A stretch of DNA of 64,000 nucleotides from Kutzneria viridogrisea. Lineage in GTDB: Bacteria > Actinomycetota > Actinomycetes > Mycobacteriales > Pseudonocardiaceae. Positions 5,559 through 38,434 of this stretch are shown here, in pieces (the first letter of the stretch is position 1; each line of letters begins with the position of its first letter). Position numbers and translations under genes: made by a program. The notes beneath the pieces were generated by a model that saw only the letters and a program-made list of their open reading frames with translations, made no database searches and was not told where the DNA came from. Where the stretch lies: positions 634,001-698,000 of the forward strand of contig JACJID010000002.1 in NCBI GenBank assembly GCA_014138725.1. Direction: 5' to 3'.

Positions 5559-6496
5559 GTGAGCAGCACGGGGTGCACACCGACCCGGGCGCGATCGCCG
5601 ACCTGGTGGACGCGGCCGAGCAGGACCACACGGTGGTCGGCAGGGACGGCGCGGTGTCCAGCTACCGGGCGCGGCGCACCCTGCGGCTGGGCGTGGAGCT
5701 GCGCAGGCAGTTGCGCCGCAAGCGGACCCAGCTGACCCTGGGCTTCCTCGCGGTGCTGCCGTTCCTGCTGCTGATCGCGTTCAAGATCGCGCCAACCAGC
5801 GGTTCCACCGGCCAGCGGACCGCCTCCTCGGCCTTCGTGGACCTGGCCACCGCCAGCGGCCTGAACTTCGTGGTGTTCGCCCTGTTCGCCTCGGCCAGCT
5901 TCCTGCTGGTCGTGGTGGTGGCCCTGTTCTTCGGCGACACCGTGGCCAGTGAGGCGTCCTGGTCCAGCCTGAAGTACCTGCTGGCCATGCCCGTTCCGCG
6001 CGGCCGGCTGCTGCGGCAGAAGGCCCTGGTGTCCGGGCTGCTCGCGCTGGGCGGGCTGGTGCTGCTGCCCGCGGTCGCGCTGGTGGTCGGCCTGGTCTGG
6101 TACGGCTCCGGCGAACTGGTCAGCACCACCGGCGAGGCCCTGCCCTTCGGCACCGGCCTCGGCAGGGTCGCACTGGCCGTCGCCTACCTGGCCGTGTCCC
6201 TGGTGTGGGTGGCCGGGCTCGCCCTGCTGCTGTCGGTGTCCACCGACGCCCCGCTGGGCGCGGTGGGCGGCGCCGTGCTGGTGTCGATCCTGTCGCAGAT
6301 CCTCGACTCGATCACCGCCCTGGGCGACCTGCGCGAGTACCTGCCCACGCACTACGCCTTCGCCTGGTCGGACCTGCTCGGCAGCGAGGTGGACTGGGGC
6401 GACATGACCCGGGGCGTGTTCTCCTCCCTGGCCTTCGGCGCCGTGTTCCTCGCGCTGGCCGTCCGCCGCTTCACCACCAAGGACATCACCTCGTAG
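5555..6496 (+). CDS. ABC-2 type transporter permease
   Basis: The 313-aa protein has a soluble N-terminal stretch of about 60 residues and then roughly six hydrophobic segments (for example FLAVLPFLLLIAF, FVVFALFASASFLLVVVVALFF and LLALGGLVLLPAVALVVGLVW). This is the layout of an ABC-2 exporter permease. The motif WSSLKYLLAMPVPRGRLLRQK is typical of this family. Its ATG overlaps the stop of the hydrolase-ATPase gene (ATGA), so the two almost certainly form one transporter. It ends three bases before the end of the convergent EamA gene. Substrate unknown. Confidence 0.88.
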   Translation: MSEQHGVHTDPGAIADLVDAAEQDHTVVGRDGAVSSYRARRTLRLGVELRRQLRRKRTQLTLGFLAVLPFLLLIAFKIAPTSGSTGQRTASSAFVDLATASGLNFVVFALFASASFLLVVVVALFFGDTVASEASWSSLKYLLAMPVPRGRLLRQKALVSGLLALGGLVLLPAVALVVGLVWYGSGELVSTTGEALPFGTGLGRVALAVAYLAVSLVWVAGLALLLSVSTDAPLGAVGGAVLVSILSQILDSITALGDLREYLPTHYAFAWSDLLGSEVDWGDMTRGVFSSLAFGAVFLALAVRRFTTKDITS

Positions 6497-32302: not shown

Positions 32303-33129
32303 TCGACCAGTCGATCCTGGGCGTCGTCGAGGGTCCGTGGCGCAAGTCCTGGACCCCCGACGACGCCCTGCGCTACGCGGTGGGCGTCGGTGCGCACGAA
32401 CTGGCCTTCGCCACCGAGAACTCCACCGGCGTGGACCAGCAGGCGTTGCCCACGCTGGCCCTGGCGCTCACGCACTGGACCGAGCCCGCGCAGGTGTTCG
32501 GGGACGTGGACGAGTCGCTGGTGCTGCACGCCGGGCAGTCGCTGGAGCTGCACCGGCCGCTGCCGGTCGCGGGCACGGTCGAGGTGACCCGCCAGGTCAC
32601 CGACATCTTCGACAAGGGTTCGGGCGCGCTGGTGCTCAGCCGGGTCGACGCCGTGCACGCCGACACCGGGCAGCCCGCGTTCACCGCGCGCTCCTCGGTG
32701 TTCCTGCGCGGGGAAGGCGGGTTCGGCGGCGAACGCGGCCCGTCGGCGCCCCGGTGGCAACCGCCCGATTCCCCACCGGACGTCGTGCTGCGCTTCACCA
32801 CCTCGCCCACGCAGGCGCTGCTGTACCGGCTCTCCGGTGACCGCAACCCCTTGCACAGCGATCCCGTCTACGCGGCGAAAGGCGGTTTCGCGCGGCCCAT
32901 CCTGCACGGGCTGTGCACGTACGGCATCACCTGCCGGTTGCTGATCACCGAGCTGCTCGGCGGGGGCGCGCACCGAGTGTCCACTGTGGACGCACGGATG
33001 AGCGCTCCAGTGCTACCCGGTGAGGAACTCCTCGTCAGCGCCTGGCAACTCGCTGACGGCGCGGTCTTCCGCACCTGCACGGCGGCGGGGGCCGTGGTGC
33101 TGGACGCGGGCCGCCTCACCTCCCGCTGA
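32299..33129 (+). CDS. MaoC-like (R)-enoyl-CoA hydratase, double hot-dog
   Basis: The 276-aa protein contains two hot-dog halves. The C-terminal half carries the hydratase-2 motif ([37 protein letters not shown], with Asp and His catalytic positions). The length and N-terminal half (LRYAVGVGA ... [25 protein letters not shown]) match the double hot-dog MFE-2-type hydratases. It hydrates the enoyl-CoA made by the overlapping acyl-CoA dehydrogenase. The GTG start overlaps that gene's stop by four bases. Confidence 0.9.
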
Positions 33130-33200
33130 GGGCCCGACCGCGCTTGTGCCGCCGCTGTGCCCGGCTGCTGTTCACTACCAGCGAGCCGAGAGGTGGTGCG

Positions 33201-33494
33201 ATGACTCTGCAGACACGTGGTGCGGCCGGAGTGGAGAGGCCCACGGCGAGCGGACTGGCCGACGTCCTGGCCCTGATCCTGGACAAGGGTCTGGTCATCG
33301 ACGTGTACGTGCGGATCTCCTTGGTGGGCATCGAACTGCTCACGATCGACGCCAGGATCGTGGTGGCCAGCGTGGACACCTACCTGCGGTTCGCCGAGGC
33401 GGTCAACCGCGTGCCCATGCCGGACCCCGGGGAGCTGCCGGGCACGCGGCCCACAAGCGCCTCGGCGGTGCCCGAGCGGGAGTTGCAGGCATGA
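33201..33494 (+). CDS. gvpA: Gas vesicle structural protein GvpA-like
   Basis: The 97-aa protein contains the GvpA/J core [50 protein letters not shown] (read in short segments), which is closer to GvpA than the other two paralogues here: [22 protein letters not shown]. GvpA polymerises into the gas-impermeable shell. ATG 33201 with GAGAGG upstream starts the cluster. A C-terminal Pro-rich tail of about 25 residues is longer than in typical GvpA. It overlaps gvpF/L by four bases. Confidence 0.88.
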
Positions 33495-34243
33495 CGAACG
33501 ACTTCCCGGACCGTGCCTGCTACGTCTACGGACTCGTACCGGGACTGACGACGCTGCCCGAGAACCTGCCCGGGGCGGAACTCAGGCTGGTCCACCACCG
33601 CGAGTTGGCCGCGGTTGTGGGCGAGGCGCCGACGGACCGTCCACTTGGGACGCGCAGCGACCTGTTGGGCCACAGCGCGGTGCTCGACCAACTGGCCCGA
33701 ACCGCGCCGGTGCTGCCAATGCGGTTCGGCACGGTGGTGCCCGACGAGCGGGCAGTCGAACGGGAAGTGCTGGCCGCACAGCACGACCTGGTCAGCCAGG
33801 CCCTCGACCGGCTCAACGGCAAGGCGCAGTTCGTCCTGGGCGTGCGCTACCTGGAGCAGGTCGTGCTCACCGAACTGCTGGACGAGGACCGCGGGATCAG
33901 CCGACTCCGCGCGGCCGTGGCGCGGCTGCCCGAGCGAGCGGGCCACCACGAGCGCGTGCGGTTGGGCGAGGCCGTCGCCCGCGCACTCGACCGCAAGCGG
34001 GCCGGGGACGCCGCAGTGCTGGAGGCCGCGCTGCGATCACAAGCCGTGGCCGTCGAGGTCCGGGAACCTGCCGACCAGTACGAGGTCCTGGACGCGGCGT
34101 TCCTGGTCGAACTGTCCCGCGCCACCGCCTTTGAGCAAGCCGTGGACGAACTCGCCCAGCGGGTCGGGCACCGGATGCGGCTGCGGCTGCTCGGGCCGAT
34201 GGCCGTCTACGACTTCGTCGGCTCCCTCACCGGAGCGGAGTGA
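33491..34243 (+). CDS. gvpF: Gas vesicle protein GvpF/GvpL
   Basis: The 250-aa protein has the GvpL/GvpF fold signature: CYVYGLVPG at the start, [31 protein letters not shown], and a C-terminal [18 protein letters not shown]. GvpF/L are accessory proteins that chaperone GvpA or line the vesicle during assembly. The letter assignment between the two paralogues in this cluster is uncertain. ATG 33491 overlaps the gvpA stop, and the stop lies just before gvpG. Confidence 0.88.
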
Positions 34244-34786: not shown

Positions 34787-35091
34787 GTGTCGACGCAGCC
34801 CCCGCGAACCTGGCCGACATCCTGGAACGCGTGCTGGACAAGGGCCTGGTCATCGCGGGGGACATCCGGGTGAGCCTGCTCGACATCGAGCTGCTGACCA
34901 TCAGGCTGCGGCTGCTGATCGCCTCGGTGGACCGCGCCAGGGAGATGGGCATCGACTGGTGGGAGCACGACCCCTCGCTCAGTTCGGGCGGCCGGTCGAC
35001 GCGGGAACTGCTCGCCGAGAACCAACTGCTCAAGCAGCGCCTCGCGGCCGCGGAGGCCTTGCCGGACAGGCAGGGGGGCGAGAGTGGTTGA
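34783..35091 (+). CDS. gvpJ: Gas vesicle protein GvpJ
   Basis: The 102-aa paralogue of GvpA reads LADILERVLDKGLVIAGDIRVSLLDIELLTIRLRLLIASVDRAREMGIDWWEHDP (read in short segments). The MGIDWWEHDP tail is typical of the GvpJ group, a minor shell or nucleation protein. A leucine-rich C-terminal helix (LLAENQLLKQRLAAAEAL) follows. TTG 34783 overlaps the gvpO stop with GGAGGA upstream. Confidence 0.88.
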   Translation: MSVDAAPANLADILERVLDKGLVIAGDIRVSLLDIELLTIRLRLLIASVDRAREMGIDWWEHDPSLSSGGRSTRELLAENQLLKQRLAAAEALPDRQGGESG

Positions 35092-35836
35092 GCGGGCGCT
35101 CAGGTACCTGTACGCGGTGTCGCGCCGGGTGGAGTTGGACTGGGTGTACGGGCTGCGCGGGGTCGGGGGTGAACAGCCGCACGTGGTTGCCGCGGGCGGT
35201 GTCACGGCTGTGGTCGGCGCGGTGGACCAGGCCGAGTTCGGCGTGGACGCGTTGCAGGGCGCGCTGGCGGACCCCGTCCGGCTGGAGCAGTTCGCCCGCG
35301 CGCACCACCACGTGGTCGACAGCCTCGCCCTGCGCACGACGACCGTCCCGCTGCGCATGGGCACCGTGTGCGAGGGCCTGGCCGGTGTGCTGGCCCTGCT
35401 CACCGGCCACCCCGACCGGTTCCGCAGCCTGCTCGACCGGTTCGAGGACCACCAGGAGTGGGGTGTGAAGGGCTACCTGGACGCCGACTGCGCGGAGACG
35501 GAGGATGCCGCGGCGACCTACCCCGGTCGGTCAGGCACGGAGTACCTGCTGCGCCGACGGGCGGCCCAGCACCGGGACGCCCAGCGCACCGACCGGGTGA
35601 TCTGGGTCAGCGGACAGGTGCACGCCGAGCTGTCCGCACTCGCGGCCGGGGAGCGACTGCTGCGCCCGCGCGGATCGTTGATGGTGCTCAACGGCGCGTA
35701 CCTGGTGCGACGGGCGGATGTGCCGGGCCTGCGGAGGGTGGTGGCGGGTCTGCCGCAGAGCCATCGCGGGCTGCGCCTGGAGGTCACCGGCCCGTGGGCG
35801 CCCTACTCCTTCGTGGACGAGGGGGCGCGGCCGTGA
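35084..35836 (+). CDS. gvpL: Gas vesicle protein GvpL/GvpF (second copy)
   Basis: The 250-aa protein is a second GvpF/L: YLYAVSRRVELDWVYGLRGVGG, HHHVVDSLALRTTTVPLRMGTVCEG, and the C-terminal GLRLEVTGPWAPYSFVDEG. The ALRTTTVPLRMGT segment corresponds to the PMRFGT segment of the first copy. GTG 35084 overlaps gvpJ and the stop overlaps the next GTG, so translation is coupled. Two F/L paralogues per cluster are normal in actinomycetes. Confidence 0.88.
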   Translation: MVERALRYLYAVSRRVELDWVYGLRGVGGEQPHVVAAGGVTAVVGAVDQAEFGVDALQGALADPVRLEQFARAHHHVVDSLALRTTTVPLRMGTVCEGLAGVLALLTGHPDRFRSLLDRFEDHQEWGVKGYLDADCAETEDAAATYPGRSGTEYLLRRRAAQHRDAQRTDRVIWVSGQVHAELSALAAGERLLRPRGSLMVLNGAYLVRRADVPGLRRVVAGLPQSHRGLRLEVTGPWAPYSFVDEGARP

Positions 35837-36304: not shown

Positions 36305-36637
36305 CTAACGCGCCCGCCGCCACCACGAACGTCGTGGCGCGGCCAGCTCGCCCTGGTCCACCAACCAGGTGCCGAAGGCCTCGGCGTCCTCGCGGGCGCG
36401 GCTGCCCGCGAGCCGGGGGTGGTCCACGGCGTAGGCGGTGAAGGTCAGCGCGAACCGGTCGCCCAGCGCCTCGGCCAGGTCGGGCCGGATCATCGCGACG
36501 ACCCGGCGCCGCTTGGCCAGCAGCGCCCTGGTCTGCGCGGCGATCCGCTCCGGGTCGAAACCGGCGGGCGGCTGGCCACCCGCGAGCAGCGCCCGGAGCA
36601 GCTCACCCTGTTGCAGGGCAAGGGATTCGCGAGTCAT
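36305..36637 (-). CDS. Small partner protein of the MNIO enzyme (SCO6045-like)
   Basis: The 110-aa protein starts at ATG 36637, overlapping the MNIO stop by four bases (ATGA). The product is basic and helical ([74 protein letters not shown] in short segments). I associate it with the SCO6045-like group that accompanies DUF692 genes in actinomycetes. In other MNIO systems a partner protein (MbnC, TglI) presents the substrate peptide to the oxygenase. A similar docking role is inferred here, not shown. Confidence 0.72.
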
Positions 36638-37446
36638 GACAGCACTTCCCGGATCGCGGTGAGCTCGGCGGCCAGTTCCTCGTCGGTCGGGTACTCGTCG
36701 TCACGTTCGAGCAGCACGCCCGGCGGCTTCGTGCGCGAGCACAGTTCGCCGAGCAGGTCGAGCACCTCGTGCTGCACGGCGTGCGCGTGCGTGTCGTGGT
36801 AGAGCCCCTCCCGCTCCACCCCGCCCGCGACGTGCACATAAGCCAGTCGCTCCAACGGGATCGCGGTCAGGAACTCCACCGGGTCGGTACCCAGGTTGCG
36901 CGCGTTGGCGTGCAGGTTGGCCACGTCCACCAGCAGCCAGCAGTCGGTGCGCTCCACCAGCTCGGCGAGGAACTGGCCCTCGGTCAGCTCGGCGCCCGGC
37001 CAGTCCAGCAGCGCGGCCACGTTCTCCAGCGCCAACGGCACCGGCAGCAGGCGCTGGGCCTGCTTCACGTTGGCCACCAACACCTCCAGCGCCTCGCGGG
37101 TGCGCGGCACGGGCATCAGGTGGCCCGCGTCGAGCCCGCCCGCGCGCACGAAGCACACGTGGTCGCTGACCAGCGGTGCGCGCACGGTCTCGGCCACGGC
37201 GGCCAGGTGCTCCACCCTCGCCGCGTCCACCGGGTCGGCGCCGCCCAGCGACAGGGACACGGCGTGCGGCAGGATCGGCAGCCCGCGCTCGGCCAGCAGC
37301 CGCAGGGACTCGGGCAGCTCGCCGGGGTGCAGGTTCTCCGCGACGACCTCCACGAAGTCCACACCGGGCAGCCGTTCCACGGTCAGGTCGATCTCGGGCC
37401 GCCAGCCGATGCCGACGCCCAGGTGTGGTGCGGTCACAGTGCGCAC
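36634..37446 (-). CDS. MNIO (DUF692) iron-dependent oxidative enzyme
   Basis: The 270-aa TIM-barrel protein has the DUF692 metal ligands in order: [64 protein letters not shown] and [10 protein letters not shown]. This family includes MbnB (methanobactin) and TglH, which oxidise cysteine or other residues in peptides with a multi-iron centre. GTG 37446 has GGGGGAGG at 6-nt spacing. The gene lies between a TIGR04222-type membrane protein with a Gly/Ser/Cys tail and a small partner, with four-base or longer overlaps. The tail is the most likely substrate; a 33-aa ORF overlapping the start is another. Confidence 0.92.
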
Positions 37447-37535
37447 GAGCTACCTCCCCCGGTCATCGGCGCACGGCACGGCCGCACCACCAGGTGCCGC
37501 CGCGCCACGCCGACCTCCAGCAGGGGCGTGTTCAT
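37434..37535 (-). CDS. Candidate 33-aa ORF between the membrane protein and the MNIO enzyme
   Basis: ATG 37535 overlaps the TIGR04222 stop (ATGA), and the frame ends 13 nt inside the MNIO gene. The product opens [19 protein letters not shown], then a CRAPM segment and ends GGGSSCAL. Third positions are almost all G or C, as in real genes here. GGGSSC also occurs in the neighbouring membrane protein tail. Caution: the GGGG portion is also the Shine-Dalgarno of the MNIO gene, so the match may be coincidental. It could be a precursor peptide or a translational linker. Confidence 0.45.
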
Positions 37536-38434
37536 CCCCCGCACCCCCCGCCGCCACAACCGCCGCCACCGCCTCCGCCGCAGCTCGACCCGCCGCCACT
37601 GCTGCAACTGGAACCCCCGCCCCCGCCGCCGCCCCACCAGCTCGACCCGGACGAGCCGGTGGTCATCGTGGCCGGGTAGATCGCCGAGGTGACGTCCCGG
37701 TCCGGGAAGGCGAGCAGCCCGCCGAGCACCACGGCCCCGGCGGCACCGCCGAGCAGCAGCGCCTCGTTCGACCCGATGACGTTGCGCGCCTTCATGGTGC
37801 GGCTGAGCACCCGATCACCGCGGAAGGTCCTCAGGTGCTGCTTGCGCAGCAGCAGCGCCAGCAGCACGGTCAGGGCCGCGCTGAGCACCAGCAGCGCGCC
37901 CAGCCACCCGGCGGGCCGGTGCAGGTTGACCCCGTTGACGAACCGGGCCAGCCCGACCAGGAACACCAGGCCCATCGGCGCCGCGGACAGGGTGCGGAAA
38001 CCCCGCGCCCGCGCCGGGGCGACCACCAGGCCGTCCCGGACCAGCTGCTCGCCGATCGCCGCCAGCTCACGGGACTCGGCGAGGCGGTTCTGCAACGCGA
38101 CCAGCCCGTAGCCGGTGGGCGGCCGGCACTTGCGCAGCACCGCCGCCTCCAGCGGGTCGGCCGAGGCCGGGCCGGTGGCCACCAGGTAGCCGGTGCCGCG
38201 CGAGGCGCGCAGCGCACCGGACTCCAGCAGCCTGGCCACGGCCGTCTCCACCGCCCGCGCCGGACCACCCGACAGGTAGCCCAGCTCGGACGCGCTGAGC
38301 TGGCGGGCGGGTCCGGCCTGAGCGGCCTTGGCGGCCACTCGGACCAGCAGGGCCGCCAGCAGCGCGACCCCGATGCCCACCAGGTAGTACGAAAGGAATT
38401 CGGGGCCACTGATGCCCCACGGTTCCTGTCCCAT
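37532..38434 (-). CDS. TIGR04222-type membrane protein with a Gly/Ser/Cys-rich tail
   Basis: ATG 38434 gives 300 aa. The N-terminus has one membrane helix (FLSYYLVGIGVALLAALLVRV), a cytoplasmic winged-helix-like region (LSASELGYLSGGPARAVETAVARLLESGALRAS in short segments) and two more hydrophobic segments near residues 160-200 (GLVFLVGLARFVNGV; LGALLVLSAALTVLLALLL). A further helix (LLLGGAAGAVVLGGLLAF) leads to a tail of about 35 residues made of Gly, Ser and Cys with two Trp: SSWWGGGGGGGSSCSSGG and then [18 protein letters not shown]. Such tails beside DUF692 genes suggest enzymatic modification of the cysteines. The gene heads a four-frame overlapping operon. Confidence 0.82.
   Translation of the reverse strand: MGQEPWGISGPEFLSYYLVGIGVALLAALLVRVAAKAAQAGPARQLSASELGYLSGGPARAVETAVARLLESGALRASRGTGYLVATGPASADPLEAAVLRKCRPPTGYGLVALQNRLAESRELAAIGEQLVRDGLVVAPARARGFRTLSAAPMGLVFLVGLARFVNGVNLHRPAGWLGALLVLSAALTVLLALLLRKQHLRTFRGDRVLSRTMKARNVIGSNEALLLGGAAGAVVLGGLLAFPDRDVTSAIYPATMTTGSSGSSWWGGGGGGGSSCSSGGGSSCGGGGGGGCGGGGCGG

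Follow-up and report, generated by a model that had tools for sequence, protein, structure and literature searches.

The pairing of DUF692 enzymes (MNIOs) with TIGR04222 proteins and PME-type 2 partners was published in 2025, as a putative system, by Antoine et al. (PMC12452194). In the available text of that paper, the Ser/Gly-rich, Cys-bearing C-termini of TIGR04222 proteins are presented as putative MNIO substrates and the tail is placed in the periplasm. The same text reports that more than one quarter of the TIGR04222 proteins have no C-proximal Cys, that MNIO is missing in a third of the TIGR04222 genomes, that PME-type 2 partners occur in at least 10% of the TIGR04222 clusters, and that the association with MNIO is looser than for bufferins. 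A second point of comparison is the oxazolin system HvfABC, in which an MNIO and a required partner oxidise repeated C-terminal Cys. According to the accessible part of PMC13419390, the Cys product of HvfB is a 5-thiooxazole, with a change of -4 Da per Cys, and high activity is reported for an artificial HvfB-HvfC fusion. For the enzyme TglH, the iron ligands H71, H107, E151, D184, N187, H216, D229, H231 and E258 are given in the available text of PMC10880893.

The locus from Kutzneria viridogrisea analysed here and its relatives resemble the clusters of Antoine et al.: the three gene types are the same, the hosts are mostly Actinomycetota, and Cys are found in C-terminal Ser/Gly regions (PMC12452194). 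One strain is even shared, since partner model A of those authors comes from Saccharothrix sp. NRRL B-16314, the source of our locus L036. Beyond the available text of PMC12452194, and partly in contrast with it, we find that Cys tails track MNIO, which is present in 42/44 genomes with TIGR04222 matches of at least 75 bits, that a partner occurs at all 80 close loci and is naturally fused to MNIO in some, and that the tail is predicted to lie inside. The cytoplasmic-side prediction, the natural fusion and the membrane-free candidates described below make the published hypothesis directly testable. Should the tail prove to be modified, MNIO would act on full-size membrane proteins that belong to the ordinary physiology of actinomycetes, as well as on secreted peptides.

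Gene set, enzyme and partner

The window, a stretch of 64,000 nucleotides, contains three co-directional genes on the minus strand, transcribed in the order TIGR04222 membrane protein, MNIO, 110-aa partner (Table 1). The initial annotation had described a TIGR04222 membrane protein ending in a Gly/Ser/Cys tail with four cysteines, followed by a DUF692 enzyme and a small partner, and the ORFs and family matches bear this out. Its further statement that all three genes overlap is right for MNIO and partner, which share 4 nt (ATGA), and wrong for the membrane protein, whose stop codon lies 85 nt from the GTG start of MNIO. The sequence GGGGGAGG stands ahead of this start. In 43/73 loci of the relatives, MNIO, its start being extrapolated, overlaps the last tailed gene. 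The 10.2-Mb source genome has a single match each to the MNIO family and the TIGR04222 family.

Table 1. Features of the MNIO operon; positions are those of the window, residues those of the membrane protein
Feature	Position	Strand	Basis or remark
TIGR04222 membrane protein (300 aa), candidate substrate	37532..38434	-	NCBIfam TIGR04222 132.5 bits; AlphaFold2 mean pLDDT 83.8
TM1, residues 13-31, N-terminus predicted outside	38342..38398	-	KD 2.3
Cytosolic domain, residues 42-139, two winged-helix-like lobes in model, possibly GPP34/GOLPH3-like	38018..38311	-	
TM2-TM3 hairpin, residues 140-197	37844..38017	-	absent from membrane-free homologues
Post-hairpin helix (residues 204-252), which probably belongs to the cytosolic fold	37679..37825	-	hydrophobic here (KD 2.16)
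Low-complexity Gly/Ser/Cys tail, residues 261-300, putative modification site	37535..37654	-	Cys 277, 285, 293, 298
33-aa ORF across the gap before MNIO, unlikely to be a gene	37434..37535	-	no homologue, no family match
MNIO (DUF692, MbnB_TglH_ChrH) enzyme	36634..37446	-	GTG start; PF05114 E 3.6e-86
Partner, 110 aa, DUF2063-like (PME-type 2)	36305..36637	-	homologues at MNIO loci; weak colinear DUF2063 match

The bridging 33-aa ORF was considered as a hidden precursor and ruled out, as tblastn (E up to 0.01) found no homologue in 80 other loci; it matched no Pfam or NCBIfam family either. Searches with PHROGs and PADLOC gave nothing up to E 0.01, and none of the gene neighbours in the window tested by Pfam showed a link to metals. 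Upstream of the membrane protein gene lies a gene for MsrB (PF01641; 38779-39207, minus strand). Of the 75 loci that extend at least 3 kb upstream, 53 have an MsrB gene there, on the same strand; this position could reflect synteny or an oxidation-related link. On the other side, a gas-vesicle protein GvpK (PF05121; 36002-36304, plus strand) converges with the operon, and two ORFs near it (33020-34243 and 35084-35836) presumably resemble GvpF/L.

The enzyme of the window matches PF05114 with 289 bits (cut-off 25) and has its closest relatives among the MNIOs of Kutzneria and other Pseudonocardiaceae. This placement in the MNIO tree, like the locus counts below, is based on the best 80 of 132 relatives by likeness to the window MNIO, which are not a random sample and include two records (L052 and L053) from one assembly. 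All nine TglH ligands (PMC10880893) are matched in the alignment, in the same order and with near-identical spacing. H61, H96, E141, D174, N177, H205, D218 and H220 are invariant in 98/98 MNIO sequences, and E247 is found in 98%. The enzyme stays below the cut-offs of three named equivalogs: it reached 205 bits against a cut-off of 310 for BufB (NF050167), 47.8 against 325 for MbnB (TIGR04159) and 175.5 against 360 for HvfB. No transmembrane segment is predicted in it or in the partner. The MNIO is predicted to be an iron-dependent peptide-modifying enzyme, and the iron ligands together with the partner gene agree with the partner-guided MNIO proposed at the outset.

A partner homologue is present at all 80 MNIO loci (tblastn E up to 0.01), L081 losing its own at the stricter limit of 1e-4. 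The partner shows both marks of PME-type 2, its gene lying directly after MNIO and its sequence having no Pfam DUF2063 match; the absence of this PME-type 1 match and the score of MNIO below the BufB cut-off separate the locus from bufferin systems. Nothing in Pfam scored above cut-off (best TerS_N, E 0.18), NCBIfam gave no match, and the partner profile, run against PDB sequences, returned only FlgJ, at E 0.33 and worse. Compared with five DUF2063-type proteins, the partner profile aligned colinearly from end to end, at a weak P of 0.0074 and a probability of 5%. In all ten loci examined from genus g8, a presumed Streptomyces, MNIO and partner share one open frame (L140, L141, L152-L159), a natural counterpart of the artificial HvfB-HvfC fusion (PMC13419390). 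Among plasmid-collection records, a single one resembles the DNA of a g8 locus, and it is from Streptomyces (82% over 15% of the query).

Cysteine tails and MNIO linkage

Tails were recognised at the 80 loci, and in the linkage list of the class sample, by a G+S+C fraction of 0.5 or more in the last 30 residues (definition 1). All 148 tailed TIGR04222-domain ORFs found at the 80 MNIO loci carry 2-6 Cys in these 30 residues and lie on the same strand as MNIO. Between one and five Cys-tailed genes are present at 75 of the 80 loci; the recurrence of the pairing in actinomycetes, stated in the initial annotation, is already published (PMC12452194). Among the five loci with no tailed gene, MNIO lies less than 1 kb from the contig end in L040, L068 and L076; L067 and L075 are unexplained. 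Another 28 domain ORFs at the 80 loci are untailed paralogues or fragments. In a 57-row alignment, C293 of the window protein is invariant and C285 is conserved in at least 90% of the rows, in a low-complexity region that is loosely aligned.

Several variants of this arrangement were observed. Lentzea operons (L005 2397-3206, L017 2254-3147 and others) hold extra paralogues devoid of TM1, with Ser-rich tails in which Cys often recur every seven or eight residues (CSSSSSSC). Tail-less TIGR04222 paralogues with no Cys in the last 30 residues sit mid-operon in Umezawaea and Saccharothrix (L003 2233-3150, L011 1400-2377), where the flanking members are Cys-tailed. The MNIO locus L069 has an 85-aa ORF consisting of a transmembrane segment plus tail (313-570), with 2 Cys in the last 30 residues. 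In L165, a 65-aa ORF rich in Gly, Ser and Cys (5574-5771; 8 Cys) stands just before MNIO and is a possible candidate for a free-standing precursor peptide.

The distribution of MNIO was followed in two overlapping samples, of 396 genomes for the phylum and 246 for the class, in which scoring was confined to the 7 or 11 best first-look TIGR04222 candidates of each genome, so that some genes may be missed. G537 and six below-cut-off places were left out of the class sample, and G484 gave no complete ORF. The curated TIGR04222 cut-off is 43 bits. In the phylum, MNIO was found in 15 of the 16 genomes with an over-cut-off match among the candidates scored, the exception (G028) having its TIGR04222 gene at a contig end, and in 0/44 genomes having only below-cut-off matches. 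In the class, 45 of 64 over-cut-off genomes have MNIO; where the matches reach 75 bits or more, 42/44 genomes have it, versus 3/19 with weaker over-cut-off matches, MNIO-less G537 being left out of these two counts. This difference suggests that the loose association published for MNIO may come partly from weak or sibling-family matches.

The tails themselves were compared in the class sample by a second definition (G+S+C+D of 0.5 or more and six or more Gly), a gene being called linked when it lies within 6 kb of an MNIO. At least two Cys were found in 27/29 linked tails versus 1/12 in MNIO-less genomes (Fisher P 2.8e-7, a value that ignores kinship); by definition 1, the linked fraction is 29/30. 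Under that same definition 1, the multi-Cys cases in MNIO-less genomes are G520, whose gene ends 141 nt from the contig end, and G600, whose frame end is unlike a genuine tail, and in G536, G544 and G614 multi-Cys tailed proteins are unlinked to the MNIO of their own genome. In this survey of DUF692-TIGR04222 neighbourhoods, which the initial annotation had envisaged, Cys tails track MNIO linkage, and some linked proteins have no Cys tail. The latter amount to 14/44 linked matches in the class sample, with neither tail nor Cys in the last 30 residues, and one further linked protein (G598) has a short Gly/Ser end devoid of Cys. Twelve of the 14 belong to genus g8, where two adjoin a tailed gene. 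In the MNIO tree, which left out the tail-less loci G582, G607, G615 and G641, six tail-less g8 rows form one starred clade within tailed relatives, a position suggesting that the tail-less state may go back to a single derived loss. In G023 and G193, two g8 genomes with MNIO, no TIGR04222 match was present among the candidates scored and no Gly-rich tail ORF was seen near MNIO.

The presumed Streptomyces loci offer some further observations. A DUF4142 protein lies between MNIO and the tail-less TIGR04222 gene in L152 (3392-4186, minus strand; family tested), and a second one, identified by likeness only, in L154 (4872-5711, plus strand). Unlinked TIGR04222-type proteins, many devoid of transmembrane segments, bear Gly or Gly/His-rich tails in L132-L135 and L169-L187. 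These soluble orphans were considered as substrates in trans, a role that is not claimed because their tails mostly contain 0-1 Cys.

Membrane topology and fold

Transmembrane segments were assigned by Kyte-Doolittle windows, which are not a trained predictor. The first hydrophobic segment of the window protein reads by charge as an N-out anchor. Bufferin precursors have a Sec signal peptide; the HvfA precursor too has a Sec signal (PMC13419390), whereas the candidate substrate here is a membrane protein. In the 57-row alignment, K+R average 3.19 after TM1 against 0.39 before it. Among linked proteins, 122 of 130 hairpin-bearing ones have charges that place both domain and tail on the inner side and lack a fourth transmembrane segment, a further 46 having shown no hairpin. 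Together with the membrane-free variants and a weak GOLPH3-like match, this count makes a tail on the cytoplasmic side probable, in disagreement with Antoine et al. (PMC12452194). For the window protein itself the topology is ambiguous: its segment 225-243 is hydrophobic enough (KD 2.16) to be a possible fourth transmembrane segment, which would leave the tail outside.

The cytosolic domain gave a middling structural match to GOLPH3 with VIA-align, which included the post-hairpin helix up to residue 245-254 and had a Z that the tool rates as perhaps no more than a common arrangement. Foldseek returned nothing at E below 1, and PF05719 (GPP34) was absent from the Pfam matches of the window protein up to E 1. 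Profile similarity between TIGR04222 and GPP34 was found, with a column-shuffle control of 0/150 for the 57-row set. A P of 7.7e-6 for the soluble set against GPP34 was set aside and is not relied on, because 2/150 column shuffles equalled or exceeded the observed score, one or more of them with an implausibly high value (score 131). The TIGR04222 profile searched against PDB sequences gave HTH regulators, with E 0.036 at best, along with low-complexity matches. Compared with GOLPH3/Vps74 and bacterial GPP34 proteins, the TIGR04222 protein would add transmembrane anchors and a tail. An RRE in the TIGR04222 domain was also considered; the domain profile gave no match to the RRE part of DUF2063-type partners (P 0.31, five sequences only), and an RRE is not claimed.

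DUF2207 membrane proteins (PF09972/PF20990) resemble the TIGR04222 proteins in their Gly-rich C-terminal tails and show profile kinship with them (P 7.4e-7); the similarity of DUF2207 to GPP34 is weak (P 0.0048). The below-cut-off TIGR04222 match of L104 falls within DUF2207_C, and all four below-cut-off siblings tested by Pfam were DUF2207. In contrast to the linked TIGR04222 proteins, 20 Gly-tailed siblings have no Cys in their last 30 residues. Among the literature matches listed, no paper joined GPP34 or DUF2207 to DUF692, TIGR04222 or MNIO.

Proposed mechanism and alternatives

At the sequence level, the enzyme, its partner and the Cys-tailed protein form a conserved gene set in which the nine iron ligands are kept. 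We lean slightly towards MNIO and its DUF2063-like partner being a putative cytoplasmic oxidase that modifies Cys in the Gly/Ser/Cys tail of the TIGR04222 protein. The tail would be the substrate, since multi-Cys tails go with MNIO linkage, and since the proteins can do without the membrane anchors and, in a few loci, without the domain as well. On the cytoplasmic face, where it is predicted to lie, it could be modified in place, as the initial annotation had inferred, and would need neither export nor removal of a leader. If HvfB and the bufferins are a guide, each Cys might become a 5-thiooxazole and the tail a membrane-tethered ligand of a metal, most likely copper. Mass changes of -2, +14 or +16 Da had initially been named; HvfB-type chemistry leads one to expect -4 Da per Cys instead (PMC13419390). 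The GPP34/GOLPH3-like cytosolic domain might then hold the tail in position or react to its modification. The complete picture, a GOLPH3-like tethered protein bearing a cytoplasmic string of 5-thiooxazoles that is made in place, never cleaved or exported, and serves as a copper buffer or sensor at the inner face, is offered tentatively, as a possibility that we rate below an even chance. If true, it would be a use of MNIO distinct from secreted bufferins, oxazolins and methanobactins, which some lineages would have multiplied, with up to five Cys-tailed paralogues per locus, or released from the membrane.

Antoine et al. inferred an extracytoplasmic tail (PMC12452194), which would be modified inside, either ahead of the insertion of the last segment or while it proceeds, and would afterwards act as an outer copper ligand like the bufferins. 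The hydrophobicity of the segment in the window protein speaks for such an arrangement, as does a post-hairpin KD reaching 1.6 in 12 of 57 rows; the charge pattern of the 122 hairpin proteins argues against it. Membrane-free homologues, moreover, keep the post-hairpin segment, which falls inside the GOLPH3-like structural alignment, and membrane-free Cys-tailed proteins adjoin MNIO (L016 2587-3210; G531). On this evidence an outer tail appears unlikely.

The preferred reading of a modified cytoplasmic tail also has to be set against the view that the tail is no MNIO substrate, its thiols acting unmodified in metal binding or disulfides while MNIO modifies another protein or peptide. In the presumed Streptomyces genus, 58 of 61 genomes have an MNIO, 8 of the 10 loci examined showed no Cys-tailed gene close to it, and it persists beside a tail-less TIGR04222 protein, all of which would suit this view. 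The six tail-less rows nevertheless form one clade inside tailed relatives, perhaps through one derived loss, and elsewhere Cys tails and MNIO linkage agree; we regard a different substrate as rather unlikely. Finally, the tail might be low-complexity drift arising from slippage in Gly codons, with Cys of no role. Gly-rich tails devoid of Cys are indeed common in the below-cut-off siblings (20/20 Gly-tailed ones examined, from 26 loci fetched; 0/600 residues Cys). In the 146 distinct linked tails, however, Cys account for 547 of 4380 residues (12.5%), most commonly six residues apart, versus 60 in total for Arg (9), Val (11) and Ala (40), whose codons likewise lie one base away from those of Gly; this makes drift highly improbable. 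Conservation of the tail Cys, which the initial annotation had proposed to check, points the same way: in 18 Lentzea tails, five Cys columns are conserved at 78-100%, with a mean of 93% versus 76% for Ser and 89% for Gly, and four of the five show synonymous changes between TGC and TGT.
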